31,050 nucleotides of DNA from a virus. Made by a program: the position numbers and the translations under genes. Shown piece after piece: positions 2,972 through 31,050 of the stretch. Numbering within the stretch: position 1 is the first letter of the stretch; the number at the start of each line of letters is the position of its first letter. The DNA is taken from IMG/VR virus record IMGVR_UViG_3300008050_007157, positions 1 to 31,050 of that record. The stretch is one strand, 5' to 3'. Below the pieces are notes generated by a model, which was not told where the DNA came from, ran no database searches, and saw only the letters and a program-made list of their open reading frames with translations.

Positions 2972-3021
2972 GTCCCACTTCTCCTCGTTGTGTTTGGGGG
3001 ATCTAGGATCATGAATCTGCG

Positions 3022-3050
3022 GGAAAATGCAATCGGACCTTGCATTTTCC
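3022..3050. promoter_or_regulatory. Operator-like perfect inverted repeat in divergent control region
   Basis: GGAAAATGCAA (3022-3032) and TTGCATTTTCC (3040-3050) are perfect 11-bp inverted arms separated by seven bases. The site is AT-rich in a very GC-rich genome and lies between divergent operons starting at 2971 and 3138. Each arm contains TTGCAT, which could serve as a -35 element pointing outward on either strand. A dimeric repressor or activator binding here could control both operons. The HTH protein at 2780-2971 is the obvious candidate. Confidence 0.6.
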
Positions 3051-3137
3051 GGGGCCGGCGATCATGCTCATTGGGCAGAGCGGATCCGGAGTCAACAGGC
3101 TCCCGGTGATGCGAACTCTGTTCGGAGGTTCGGAGCA

Positions 3138-3353: not shown

Positions 3354-4579
3354 GCCCCCGGCTGGAAGTCCTGACGAACACGATCTTGAACCGCCGCCGG
3401 CGCTGCGAGGAGTTGTTTCGGCTCTCCGTCCTGGAGCGCCTGGAGCGCCCCTCTACGCGCCCTGCCCGCCCCGTGGGGTCCGCGTTTCATCATGGCATCG
3501 AACACCGCGACCCCACCGCCGCAGGGGACTATCTCCGCAAGGCCGCGGCGGGGCAGCTGTGGACCAACGACGAGCGCGAGGGCCTAGAGACGTGGGTCGC
3601 GATCGTGGAGGCGATGGTCGGCGGCGCGCTCGCGTTGTGGACGGACTGGCCCACGGTGCAGGAGAGCGTCTTTGAGACGCCGATCGTGAACCCGGCGACG
3701 GGCGCTCGCTCCACGCGGCATCGTATGTCGGGTCGCATCGACGGGGAGTGGGACTTCCTGCCCCACGCCATCGGCTCGCGCCACATCGAGGTCGCGTCGT
3801 GGCCGGAGGCTGGATGGGACTACGAAGACGGCACCCCCGCGCCCGCCGCCATCCTGGAGCTTAAGACCACCGGACGGCTCGACCGCGACTTCATCCAGCG
3901 TCTGAGCATCGCCGCGCAACCGACCTCCTATCTGGAAGCGGCCAGCTACGACCGGGGCCGCGACGTGCGGGTGGCGGTCTACCGCATCGCGAAGAAGCCC
4001 GGGCTCCGTCCGCATCGGGGGGAGACGGACGAGGAGTACCGGCAGCGGTCGCTGGATCGGAAGCCGCTGGCCCCCTTGAAGCCGAAGACGCTCAAGAAGG
4101 CCCCCGCAAAAGGGATCGACGTCCTGGACGTGGACGATCTCGGATTCGTAACCAGCTTCCGGCGCGGAGAGCTTGTCTACGGGCTCGTAGAGGGCCTGGG
4201 CTACGTCGAGTCCGATGAGTCCATTAGGACGCGGGAAACGGCGCGAGAGCGCGACAGGGCCCCGCTCAGGCGCAAGGTCGCGGAGGCCCCTGCGGACTTC
4301 CGCGAGCGAATCCGCGCCGACTACTTGGCGCGCCCTGAGTTCTACTTCGCGGAGGTCATCGTCACCCGCACCGAGGAGCAGATGGAGCGGTGGCGGCACG
4401 AGGCCTGGGAGGAGCACCTCCGGATCCTGCGAATCGAGAACGGTGGAATGACCGTTCGCAACGACAACAGCTGCCTGGATTTCGGGCGCTGCGACTTCCT
4501 CGACCTCTGCACGGGGCAGGTCGGGGTCGAAGTCTTCAACGTGCGGCCCCACGTCAACCCTGAACTGGAGAACTCATGA
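3350..4579 (+). CDS. PD-(D/E)XK exonuclease with Fe-S cluster (RecB/Cas4-like)
   Basis: This 409-residue nuclease has the core residues of the PD-(D/E)XK RecB/Cas4 superfamily. GSAFHHG (about 43-49) holds the conserved His region, D131 lies in GRIDG, E170 and K172 lie in ILELKTTG, and Q190 and Y194 form the QxxxY motif. A lone cysteine near the N-terminus (C19) plus C375, C381 and C387 at the C-terminus match the four-cysteine iron-sulphur arrangement of Cas4 and AddB-type nucleases. It would resect DNA ends for phage recombination. The start at 3350 gives an ATGA overlap with the preceding gene; a longer upstream reading would overlap that gene completely. It directly precedes and overlaps the Sak4-like gene. 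No other CRISPR genes are present, so a Cas role is unlikely. Confidence 0.88.
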   Translation: MSPRLEVLTNTILNRRRRCEELFRLSVLERLERPSTRPARPVGSAFHHGIEHRDPTAAGDYLRKAAAGQLWTNDEREGLETWVAIVEAMVGGALALWTDWPTVQESVFETPIVNPATGARSTRHRMSGRIDGEWDFLPHAIGSRHIEVASWPEAGWDYEDGTPAPAAILELKTTGRLDRDFIQRLSIAAQPTSYLEAASYDRGRDVRVAVYRIAKKPGLRPHRGETDEEYRQRSLDRKPLAPLKPKTLKKAPAKGIDVLDVDDLGFVTSFRRGELVYGLVEGLGYVESDESIRTRETARERDRAPLRRKVAEAPADFRERIRADYLARPEFYFAEVIVTRTEEQMERWRHEAWEEHLRILRIENGGMTVRNDNSCLDFGRCDFLDLCTGQVGVEVFNVRPHVNPELENS

Positions 4580-11752: not shown

Positions 11753-14700
11753 TCAGCGCTCCTCGCGGACCGCGATCGTGTTCATGCGCTCCAGTTCGGT
11801 CTTCGCCTCGTCGCCGGTGACGTTGTCGGTTCGTGGATTCGTCTCCAGTCGTCCGTACACCCACTCCCTCCAGTCGGTCAGCGGGTGCGTCGCGTCCGTG
11901 TCCGTGGGGACGCGCGAGAGGTACGTCACGAGGCCCACCGGACCGTCCTGCATCTCGTGGATGCCCTCGACGGTCCGCAGCGTGTCGAACGGGGAGCCGA
12001 TCGCCAGCGCGGTTCCCGTCTGTCCGATCACGTAGTTCGGATCGGGCTGCGAGTCCTGGACGCGGCTGGCGTCGATCGCGGTGTCGCTCCAGGCGATCTC
12101 CACGAGGCGACGGGAGGGCCCCCGCTTGCGGGCACGACGAGTGCCCCCGCGCCGGCGGAAGACCTCCGAATCGAACTCCCGGATGGTACTCCACCCGCTG
12201 TCGTACTCGTGCGCGAAGGCGGCGATGGGTCCGATGAAGACCTGACCGATCCGGTAGTCGTCGTCGGCGGTCTGCTGGATCGGGATCCGCAGCCGCAGGA
12301 ACTGGTAGTCGAGGTTATAGCCGTGGACGATCGCACCGAAGTCCTTGCGGCGGATCTTGCCGGTGCCGAAGGCCTGCGCGCCGAGGGCTCCCGGCATGTT
12401 GTCGTCCGCGAGGACGATCGTCGGCTTCTTCGTGCTGCTGTTGTTCCCGAGCCATGCCCCCTCGGTGTTGCGGGTGATCTTGTGGAGATTCCCCGACTCG
12501 CCCCCGGCCAAGTCGAACGTGTCGCCGACGTGGGCGGTGTGCCAGAACCAGCGCTCACCGGTGGTGCTGACGCCGGCGCGGGGAATGACCGTGCGCCCGC
12601 GCCGGTCGTACGCGAGCGAGGTCCAGTCGTCCGTCGCGTCCAGCGTCACGATGGATTGCCACGCGGCACCGTCCCAACCCTCCACCTCGATCGTTCCGAG
12701 GTTGCTGTTCTGGACGAGTACCAACAGCGAGTGGTTCATCTGGCGCGCCGAGCCGAAGTCGGGATCGAGCTCCCACGGGATCAGCTGCTGCACACCGTCC
12801 CCGAGGTTCCGCCAGCCCCGCCGAGGGGACGGGTTGCTCTGCGGGTGCAGGTTCTCGATCCCGAATTCGTACTTTGGACGGATCTGCCACGTCTCAGCGA
12901 TGAACGAGGGACCGTCCTTCGCCGCGAGTCGCACGTCGTCCTCCAGGAGGCGCGGCCAGACGCTGTAACTGATGGGATGGAGGTCATTGTTGTTCCAGGC
13001 CTCCGCGAGGCGCTGGTCAGGGTCGTCCAGCGCGGCCCATCGGTACGGCCAGAGGTTGTAGCCGAAGAACTCCCAGTCGCTGATCTCGGACCCGACCGCC
13101 GTGGCGATATGCCCGAACTCGACGCGGTTGTCGTTGGCGGTCGCGCCTCCGTTGACCAGCGAGCTTGAGGGCCCCCGGGTCCAGCGACGCACGTGGCCGA
13201 CGTCCGTCGACTCGGCGTAGAACGACAGGACGTCGCCATCGATGCCGTCGCCGTTCAGGATGATCGCGAAGTAGAAGGTGCCCGTCGACAGGTCCAGGCC
13301 CGTGACGTCGGCGATGGTCGCGGCAGCTTCGTCGTCGTAGAGGCGGAAGCCCGTGTCGTCCAGGCGCACCGTCACCGTGTACTGGTACCCGCCGTTGTCC
13401 GCGAGGCGCACCTTGGCGGCGATCTCCTCGGTGGCGAGGTCCCCGTCGCCGGCGTTCAGCTGGACCGCGAACATCACGATCGCTCGCCGGAAGTCCCCCG
13501 CCGCCTCCCGATAGAAGCTCCTGGCGTCGCCCGACGTTGTGATCCGAAGACGCTGGTCGGACTGGATCGCCTCGACGCCCGCGCCCGTCCCGGTCCATCC
13601 GACGTTCTGGGGCTCCTCGATGGAGATCCAGAGCCCTCCCATCTTCCCGTTGTCGTCGCTCTGCGACCACGGGATGAAGGCCGTGTCGGGGAAGTTGGTG
13701 GTGACCGTCGGGACCCCGCCGACCGCCTCGTCCGTCGCGGGGACGGTCATGCTGGAGTACCCGCCCATGAACAGGCAGACGACGGCGCTCTCGCTCTCGG
13801 CGTCGTTGCTGGCGAGGTAGCGGCTGACGAGCAGCGCCCGCCCGCCGACAGAGGTCGCAGCGAAGTCCAGCAGCTGGTTCGTCGTCTTCGCCGGATCGAG
13901 CTCTGCGACGGGGCCACCCCACTGATCCCACGAGTCGCCGCGGTTCAGGGTCCGCAGGAGCCGAGTCGCCGCAGACGCGCCGCCGTCGCTCATCTGCGCG
14001 TAGGCGTACACGATCCCGTCCTCGTCCTCCCACACCGAAACGGTGGGCGTCGTGCCGGCGTTGTCCGCGATCATCACGACAGGGGTCGTGTCCTGGACGT
14101 CTTCGTAGGCCGAGCCGATCCGTGTGGACTGGTACCGCGACGGGGTCGCGCCGTCCTCGTAAACGAACATGAAGCCGCCACCCTTGAGCGCCGTCAGGGA
14201 CATGGCGTCGGGGTTCGCGCTCGCGGTCCACGTCAACGAGATCAGATCGAAGTGGTTCCCGCCGTCGCGACTCGCGTACTGCGCGATCTCGTTGGCCCCG
14301 CCGGTGTCGTACATCACGAACAGCGCGATCTGGTCGCTGCTGTAGGCCGCGCGAACCTGGTGGATGGTCGCGCCCACCGGAAGGTCGCTGCGGAGGACGT
14401 GGACCCCTCCGTAGTTGAAGGCCGAGAAGTCGGGCTCGGCCTTCACCGTGATCAGGTTGCGGCCGTCGTCGTTCACGAGGAAGACGAGCACCTTCCCGTC
14501 GCTCATCTGGGCGAGGGCGGGGCAGGGCTGGTCGTGGGACGTCCCCAGGGGGCTTAGAGCGGCCACGAGCACGCTCCACGCACCCGTGGCCGGGTCGTAC
14601 TGCTGGATCTCGACTCCAGAGGCGGCAGACGCTTTCTGGTGCGCCATGAGCACGGTCTTGTCCGCGAGGCGCAGGACGTCGGGGAGCGAGCCGCCGGTCC

Positions 14701-30111: not shown

Positions 30112-30144
30112 GGGTGCCATCGTTCAGCGACCCCGCGATACTTT
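30112..30144 (+). promoter_or_regulatory. Promoter module copy 1 (leaderless start)
   Basis: GGGTGCCA (30112-30119) is followed after 17 bases by GATACTTT (30137-30144), and the first ATG follows at 30149, six bases after GATACT. No Shine-Dalgarno precedes the ATG. The same GGGTGCCA-N17-GATACTTT layout occurs at 30802-30834 with a largely different spacer sequence, which indicates functional constraint on the two blocks. The spacing is that of a bacterial -35/-10 promoter. TACTTT also fits the TANNNT -10 form of actinobacteria. Confidence 0.6.
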
Positions 30145-30170
30145 GATCATGATGACGAACACGAACAACA
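30137..30170 (+). repeat. 34-bp direct repeat, copy 1 (-10 and N-terminal codons)
   Basis: Bases 30137-30170 are identical to 30827-30860. The repeat covers the -10-like element, the double ATG and the codons for MMTNTNN. The two downstream genes diverge right after it. Confidence 0.95.
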
Positions 30171-30442
30171 TGACCGCCGCCGCCACCAACCTCAACGCGC
30201 CGATGATGACCCTGACCGCTGATTACATTGACCTGCTCGTGTCCCGGTGTACCAGCACCGCCCCCTGGCAGATCCGTGGAATGTTCACGAACTACGCCGA
30301 CGTCCTGCTCGCGTCCACCGTGGTCGCTCGGGGATTGCTAACCCGCGACCACAACGCCGCCGCCGAGGTCGCGATCGTCTCATTCGGGCCAGACGGGTAC
30401 GTCAAGACCGACGTCAAGACCGCAGCCGCGACGACTTGGTAA
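30149..30442 (+). CDS. Small protein with repeated MMTNTNN leader
   Basis: This 97-residue protein begins MMTNTNN, identical to the peptide encoded at 30839, then MTAAATNLNAPMMTLTADYI. The rest is mixed helix and strand with one cysteine (about 33), ending GPDGYVKTDVKTAAATTW. No family is recognised. Two adjacent ATGs (30149 and 30152) are possible; no Shine-Dalgarno is present, and the promoter-like -10 is six bases away. An internal ATG in frame (30173 or 30203) could serve if the leader is removed. The next gene overlaps its stop by one base (TAATG). Confidence 0.6.
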   Translation: MMTNTNNMTAAATNLNAPMMTLTADYIDLLVSRCTSTAPWQIRGMFTNYADVLLASTVVARGLLTRDHNAAAEVAIVSFGPDGYVKTDVKTAAATTW

Positions 30443-30711
30443 TGCCCGCAGCAGCCAAGAAGACCCTCCACGAACTGCGCGTCGAGTACCGGCACCAGCA
30501 GGAGCGCTCGGACCTGGACCGTGGCACGTTCCGTGCCGAGGTCGATGCCATCATGGCGAGCCCCGGCGAGCTTCCTGGGATCACCTACGCCGAGCAGGTC
30601 GCCTTCGCGGCGTGGATCGCCGCGACCGTCAGCCTCAACCCCGACGACGAGATCGTGGATGACCTCGACGGGGGCTGGGACCGGCGCATACACGAAGCCC
30701 TCGCCTCCTAG
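30442..30711 (+). CDS. Hypothetical acidic protein
   Basis: This 89-residue protein begins MPAAAKKTLHELRVEYRHQQ and ends in an acidic stretch (NPDDEIVDDLDGG, about 67-79) and a short helix. No family is recognised; there are no cysteines or membrane segments. The ATG overlaps the upstream stop (TAATG) with no Shine-Dalgarno, so it is translationally coupled. It is followed by a strong stem-loop, which ends this two-gene unit. Confidence 0.6.
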   Translation: MPAAAKKTLHELRVEYRHQQERSDLDRGTFRAEVDAIMASPGELPGITYAEQVAFAAWIAATVSLNPDDEIVDDLDGGWDRRIHEALAS

Positions 30712-30728
30712 CGCCTCGCGCTCATCCC

Positions 30729-30768
30729 CCGACAGCCCGGTTCGGCATTCGCTGGACCGGGCTGTCGG
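30729..30768 (+). terminator. Strong stem-loop terminator after the two-gene unit
   Basis: CCGACAGCCCGGT (30729-30741) and ACCGGGCTGTCGG (30756-30768) form a perfect 13-bp stem with a 14-base loop. There is no clear U-tract. It starts 18 bases after the stop codon at 30711 and separates the unit from promoter copy 2. Confidence 0.65.
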
Positions 30769-30801
30769 CGTGCATGAATCTGCACCTTTCTGCGATTTGG
30801 A

Positions 30802-30834
30802 GGGTGCCAGAGTTCCGAGGGGACTGGATACTTT
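30802..30834 (+). promoter_or_regulatory. Promoter module copy 2 (leaderless start)
   Basis: GGGTGCCA (30802-30809), a 17-base spacer and GATACTTT (30827-30834) repeat the layout of the module at 30112. The first ATG is at 30839. There is no Shine-Dalgarno between the -10-like element and the ATG. The module lies between a terminator hairpin and a short leader gene, as expected of an independent promoter. Confidence 0.6.
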
Positions 30835-30860
30835 GATCATGATGACGAACACGAACAACA
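30827..30860 (+). repeat. 34-bp direct repeat, copy 2
   Basis: This is identical to 30137-30170 and again covers the -10-like element, the double ATG and the first codons (MMTNTNN). Confidence 0.95.
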
Positions 30861-30919
30861 CCGCCGCCGCCCTCTCCCCCCTCGCCGCCGCCCTCACCCC
30901 GATCACCCCCAACCGCTAG
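30839..30919 (+). CDS. 26-residue leader peptide
   Basis: The peptide starts MMTNTNNTAAALSPLAAALT and ends PITPNR; it is Thr, Asn, Ala and Pro rich. It begins in the second copy of the 34-bp repeat with no Shine-Dalgarno. Its TAG stop is part of TAGGAG, the ribosome binding site of the next gene at 30931. It could be a leader that couples or regulates translation of that gene, with the N-terminal codons serving leaderless initiation. A functional microprotein is the alternative. Confidence 0.55.
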   Translation: MMTNTNNTAAALSPLAAALTPITPNR

Positions 30920-30930
30920 GAGAAATCCAG

Positions 30931-31050
30931 ATGAACCTCGGAACCAACATCACCTTCCCCGCCGACCACCGCGACCTCGTCGGGGAGCCCTCCCCCCTCC
31001 GGGGGCTCACCGCGCGCGTCGTCGCGGACCACGACCACGGGGGGTACACC
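30931..31050 (+). CDS. Truncated gene, N-terminus only (unknown)
   Basis: Forty codons are visible before the right edge. The start ATG at 30931 has AGGAG (30918-30922) eight bases upstream, made from the stop of the leader peptide gene. The visible part begins MNLGTNITFPADHRDLVGEP and continues with a beta-strand-like segment and DHDHGG. No family can be assigned. The leader arrangement upstream suggests translational coupling. Confidence 0.65.
   Translation, partial: MNLGTNITFPADHRDLVGEPSPLRGLTARVVADHDHGGYT

Follow-up and report, generated by a model that had tools for sequence, protein, structure and literature searches.

A repeated leaderless-type start module in a phage genome and a coding start tag shared with other phages

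Which part of a repeated phage gene start is the unit that is reused, the promoter, the first codons, or both? The question is raised by two modules lying 690 bp apart in a virus record, analysed here over its entire 31,050 bases (the window). Most of the window is a leftward gene block that includes the tape measure protein and, at its far end, a DnaB-like helicase, a replication initiation protein, a Sak4-like annealing protein and an exonuclease. Both modules are located to the right of this block, where the gene direction turns rightward (Table 1).

Table 1. Features of the two modules and the adjoining genes (window coordinates).
Feature	Position	Strand	Basis
Copy 1, -35-like block GGGTGCCA (hexamer GTGCCA 30114-30119)	30112..30119	+	exact match in copy 2, at equal distance to the -10-like block
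Copy 1, -10-like hexamer GATACT, 17 nt past the -35-like hexamer	30137..30142	+	sequence; position agrees with published leaderless signals
Copy 1, 34-bp identical block, -10-like hexamer through MMTNTNN codons	30137..30170	+	sequence
Gene 1, 97 aa: 18-residue tag MMTNTNNMTAAATNLNAP in frame with a 79-residue body (MMTLTADY...)	30149..30442	+	81% identity over residues 19-97
Internal ATGATG at the start-codon position of SD-led homologues, here without SD	30203..30208	+	sequence, comparison
Gene 2, 89 aa; start overlaps gene 1 stop (TAATG)	30442..30711	+	sequence
18-bp perfect hairpin 3' of gene 2	30729..30768	+	folding prediction
Copy 2, -35-like block GGGTGCCA	30802..30809	+	sequence
Copy 2, 34-bp identical block	30827..30860	+	sequence
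Copy 2, leaderless-type mini-ORF, 26 aa, MMTNTNNTAAALSPLAAALTPITPNR	30839..30919	+	51 nt identical to the L128 tag
Mini-ORF stop TAG overlapping the SD AGGAG of the following gene (TAGGAGAAATCCAGATG)	30917..30923	+	sequence
Downstream gene MNLGTNITFPADHR..., truncated by the contig end	30931..31050	+	sequence; starts with ATG at 30931

The modules share the layout GGGTGCCA-N17-GATACTTTGATC-ATGATGACGAACACGAACAAC, and GGGTGCCA occurs nowhere else in the 31,050-nt window. Their 17-nt spacers are alike in 7 of 17 positions and are followed by 34 identical bases, comprising GATACTTT, GATC, ATGATG, the MMTNTNN codons and the first base of the following codon. Both copies read MMTNTNN from ATGATG. 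The duplication claimed in the preliminary description, with its distance, its mostly different spacer of constant length and its 34 identical bases, is thereby confirmed in the sequence. The same holds for the position of the ATG, six nucleotides past the hexamer GATACT (four past GATACTTT) in both copies, and for the absence of a Shine-Dalgarno (SD) sequence from the 15 nt upstream of either ATG. The first base of the -10-like hexamer lies 12 nt 5' of the ATG (30137 to 30149 and 30827 to 30839). A search with ATGACGAACACGAACAA, allowing up to three mismatches, yielded two matches in the window and no more (0.00 expected from shuffled sequences), and at this tolerance the start tag was absent from the rest of the window.

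Taken by themselves, the two promoter matches are weak or divergent, because GTGCCA (scored against TTGACA) and GATACT each agree with the sigma-70 consensus in 4 of 6 positions and a stringent consensus scan with a 9/12 cut-off called neither. GATACT departs from TANNNT in its first base. The 17-nt spacing between the hexamers is kept in both copies though the spacer sequence differs. The codons after the start are A/C-rich (ACGAACACGAACAAC), and no structure is predicted for the first 36 nt of either putative transcript (0.0 kcal/mol; window mean, -9.4). An 8-bp palindrome, ATCATGAT, extends over the start codon in both copies.

Copy 1 opens gene 1. The body of this gene is 81% identical to proteins of L003, L004 and L005, which represent one phage, and 83% identical to its counterpart in L041; it is recognisable in L128, where the homologue (12653-12860) appears frameshifted, tblastn coverage taking two frames. 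The homologues in L005, L041 and L128 begin with (M)MTLTADY, lack the 18-residue tag, and stand behind a repeated unit of a hairpin, CAGCCGCCGAGGTGYAACCCTAG and an SD sequence, which was not found in the window. In gene 1 of the window, the promoter and an in-frame MMTNTNNMTAAATNLNAP stand in place of this leader, and the former start has become the internal ATGATG at 30203. In L128, a tagged 67-aa gene lies immediately upstream of the gene-1 homologue, so an in-frame deletion joining both would be a simple route to the window fusion; we infer that the fusion may have arisen in this way. The unit with the GC-rich hairpin precedes several genes of L005 (about 2998-3063, 3970-4028 and 4320-4376), L041 (about 905-970) and L128 (about 12595-12660). 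It seems to be a leadered start module exchangeable with the leaderless one. The small gene itself appears to have been exchanged recently between the window phage and L005, because window positions 30202-30452 and L005 4376-4626 share 89% DNA identity over 251 bp, whereas identity between their tape measure proteins is only 29%.

Gene 2 had no match in PHROG in an in-frame search. The 71-nt stretch 30720-30790 has a predicted fold of -44.5 kcal/mol, mostly due to the stem of the hairpin 3' of gene 2, which is probably a terminator without a T tail. Copy 2 heads a short open reading frame instead of a fused gene, and the end of this mini-ORF overlaps the next SD sequence, the arrangement of a leaderless bicistronic unit. 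The same overlap (TAAGGAGAAAAGCAATG) is present in L017, where TTGACA-17-TACATT-N6-ATGATGACGAACACGAACAACGACTAAGGAG leads a mini-ORF of eight residues that terminates on an SD sequence. A long pentapeptide-like repeat array (GCCAATCTGAAG...; about positions 1-500 of L017) lies 3' of this tagged mini-ORF and its next gene.

The part that is widely shared with other phages is the start tag, ATG(ATG)ACGAACACGAAC; the promoter sequence is not shared. In relatives, the tag follows either differing leaderless-type promoters or a hairpin plus SD. L005 has four genes starting with ATGATGACGAACACGAACA, two of leaderless type and two SD-led. The leaderless-type pair comprises a DNA ligase (Pfam) behind TAGACA-17-TACGAT-N6-ATG and a 74-aa gene behind TTGTGC-17-TAATGT-N6-ATG. 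In L020, a stretch of about 1 kb contains four tagged genes; TANNNT precedes the ATG by 6 nt in each of them, and three have TTGACA or TTGACG. L128 has TAGACG-17-TTTAAT-N6 before its tag; 51 coding nucleotides are identical to window copy 2, while the promoter is different. L017, L128 and L041 have one leaderless-type tagged start each. When promoter-like sites were listed in L005, L020, L017 and L128, nearly all those with an ATG six bases downstream carried the tag; the few untagged cases with GTG or gaps of 5, 7 or 8 nt may be due to chance. The proteins headed by the tag are unrelated, a DNA ligase and several of no assigned function. The tag is the shared unit, since it is conserved between phages while the promoters differ. 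It is not exclusive to leaderless starts, since two of the four tagged L005 genes are SD-led. The repeat had been described as promoter and codons in one piece, which holds within the window; between phages, the tag is kept and the promoter is not. The element GGTGC-N19-(G/T)ATA, named there as the pattern by which further copies might be recognised, was not found in L005, L003 and L004, nor was the window motif.

The tag was counted in a scan with the 16-mer alone, which is blind to promoters and gave 46 non-redundant occurrences, 27 of them at high GC. TANNNT stood 6-7 nt before the tag in 9 of 46 cases, against a background of about 0.5 for each other gap (p 5e-7), and in 8 of the 27 high-GC cases (p about 3e-11); these p-values are approximate because some occurrences come from one phage. 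Many of the occurrences are not preceded by a promoter and represent coincidental or internal matches. Among 82 tagged starts with TANNNT, a -35 hexamer at a spacing of 16-18 nt scored 6/6 in six and 5/6 in eight, as opposed to none and three at control spacings of 10-12. Tag-independent starts were compared at codons 2-6, using 32 untagged leaderless-type and 360 SD-led starts from shared loci. The A content was 0.444 versus 0.333 (p 5e-5) and the Asn plus Thr fraction 0.294 versus 0.167 (p 0.001). After correction for the later codons of each gene, the A excess was modest (p 0.012) and no C excess was detected in the leaderless-type starts (p 0.81). The earlier suggestions of a leaderless promoter geometry, of start codons without SD and of first codons belonging to the start signal all gain support, as the tag recurs behind other promoters of the form TTGACA-like/TANNNT/N6/ATG in unrelated contigs.

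The probable explanation, favoured with moderate confidence, is a cassette for leaderless initiation that can be reused and in which the unstructured, A/C-rich first codons aid initiation. A promoter of the sigma-70/SigA type would direct transcription to begin on the ATG or no more than one base from it, and would be followed by the fixed, unstructured and A/C-rich start tag ATG ATG ACG AAC ACG AAC AAC. A 70S ribosome would then bind at the AUG forming the 5' end of the RNA, with the A/C-rich codons promoting initiation by leaving its entry site unpaired. The recurrence of these codons behind different leaderless-type promoters suggests such a help for ribosomes starting on leaderless RNAs. 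Two uses would be found in the window. In copy 1, the cassette is fused in frame and extends by 18 residues a protein beginning with MMTLTADY in relatives. In copy 2, it would serve as a leaderless fore-cistron of 26 codons whose end falls on the SD sequence of the next gene, and terminating ribosomes could restart there.

The two starts might also be ordinary leaderless genes that arose when a single gene start was duplicated recently; the identical codons would then have no function of their own and would only have escaped divergence so far. The proximity of the copies in one phage would fit, leaderless phage genes are known, and a similar TAAA... sequence continues past the 34 bp in both tags. 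However, the spacer has diverged while both flanking blocks are intact, and one recent duplication cannot yield a tag behind unrelated promoters elsewhere in synonymous variants. Promoter-backed MTNTN starts, synonymous codons allowed, were present in contigs of 32% to 68% GC, with ACA AAC ACA AAC in AT-richer and ACG AAC ACG AAC in GC-rich contigs, which speaks against a common origin in one recent element. A duplication is considered unlikely.

The synonymous variation is compatible with a constraint on A/C-rich RNA as well as with a role of the peptide, by which an N-terminal MTNTN would serve protein stability, N-terminal processing or localisation and the leaderless promoter would be incidental. 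MTNTN is indeed kept with different codons in different phages, heads leaderless and SD-led genes of L005 alike, and is about four times more frequent than MNTNT, a control of equal composition (21 cases, 11 with a strong -35, versus five cases, one with a strong -35), a comparison that also counts in favour of the cassette. Its occurrence on unrelated proteins speaks against this role, as do its presence as a free peptide of 8 (L017) or 26 residues (copy 2) with no downstream protein carrying it and the tagless gene-1 body in three relatives; a peptide function is judged distinctly improbable. Very improbable is an operator, bound by a phage regulator from the -10 into the first codons, which would explain the identity from -10 to +22 and the palindrome on both start codons, but the ATG is preceded by a different sequence in all other tagged phages, so the palindrome is not shared, and the tag itself has no dyad.

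The leaderless-initiation cassette may extend beyond this phage. Tentatively, and with more doubt than confidence, it is proposed to be transferable among phages, probably of actinobacteria or other hosts using leaderless genes, with the tag (MTNTN, ACN AAY ACN AAY) as a selected ribosome-entry element; the cassette could take the place of hairpin-plus-SD leaders, be joined to any gene or serve as a mini-cistron. If true, the MTNTN tag would be a coding-side counterpart of the SD sequence for leaderless mRNAs. The efficiency and specificity of such mRNAs without an SD sequence are an unsettled question, and they are common in Actinobacteria. A short tag that recurs on the leaderless starts of phages makes an obvious candidate for a downstream signal, one open to direct testing with reporters, and the cassette provides compact start elements for gene expression in bacteria of high GC. 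For annotation, the N-terminal extensions and mini-ORFs of tagged genes could escape SD-based gene finders.

The GC content and the leaderless geometry suggest an actinobacterium or similar host. The tape measure protein of the window has weak matches, to Vibrio phages, and a phage collection searched by DNA and by the gene-1 protein yielded no relative. The 15-mer was a leaderless-type start in one of 199 genomes of the phylum of Streptomyces, that genome being the search centre, picked because it holds the tag. Examples in GTDB are mostly from Streptomyces and relatives; the tag is thus present in hosts, though not common. One Streptomyces gene family (L049, L062, L067, L076) starts with TTGACCT...TACGTT-N7-ATGACGAACACGAAC or closely similar sequences; an inverted repeat, TTGACCTCAA...TTGAGGTCC, lies immediately 5' of the -10. 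Its members are apparently leaderless-type host genes sharing the tag. Matches of a 30-mer in BLAST were mostly internal to coding sequence. The relaxed motif GTGCCA-N17-GATACT...ATG had five hits in viral contigs (four at 30-45% GC, one at 55%), none tagged, and these were judged to be chance. A lone GATACTTTGATCATGATG hit in L006 lay within an unrelated short ORF, directly behind an SD and ATG, and was rejected as coincidence.

Leaderless genes, enhancement by CA repeats and phage start-associated repeats are already known. A recurrent MTNTN tag was not found in the open-access papers searched, an absence that is no proof of its being unreported. Pairing with 16S rRNA was set aside as a function of the tag, as complementary 'downstream boxes' for leaderless mRNAs were proposed and then refuted. 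Short repeats at the starts of non-structural genes occur as SAS/ESAS in cluster K mycobacteriophages (PMC3203893). SAS is a 13-bp sequence, GGGATAGGAGCCC, upstream of the ATG with an SD core; in contrast, the window repeat reaches from the -10 to codon 7 without SD, and no such 13-bp SAS was found upstream of either window start, which places the modules outside SAS/ESAS. Cluster O mycobacteriophages such as Corndog have predicted SigA promoters whose +1 is the first base of the start codon; these lie in a divergent intergenic region, and no shared coding tag is reported in the portion of that source considered (PMC4351075).

Leaderless (TA-led) genes are common in Actinobacteria and Deinococcus-Thermus (PMC3160421). 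TA-like signals around 12 bp upstream of bacterial starts were read as leaderless in a 2011 survey, and in M. smegmatis an ATG or GTG at +1 suffices for a leaderless start (PMC4633059). The window modules resemble such genes in the -10-like hexamer from 12 nt before the start, the missing SD and the ATG at the expected +1. They differ in GATACT, which is not TANNNT, and in the repetition of a fixed 20-nt coding tag. In E. coli, CA repeats placed behind the start codon increase the translation of leaderless as well as leadered mRNAs (Martin-Farmer and Janssen 1999, as cited in PMC9031893). The A/C-rich, unstructured window codons are similar, and both are found with leaderless and SD-led starts; the tag is a natural, specific Thr-Asn repeat (ACG AAC ACG AAC), whereas the enhancer is a synthetic CA multimer. 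The effect was measured in E. coli; enhancement in the host of the window phage is putative. In an engineered design for C. glutamicum, a leaderless fore-cistron ending on an SD sequence supports expression of the next gene (PMC10367133). Unlike this design, copy 2 and L017 are natural phage sequences with putative coupling; they share with it the order of leaderless promoter, short fore-cistron, SD and gene.
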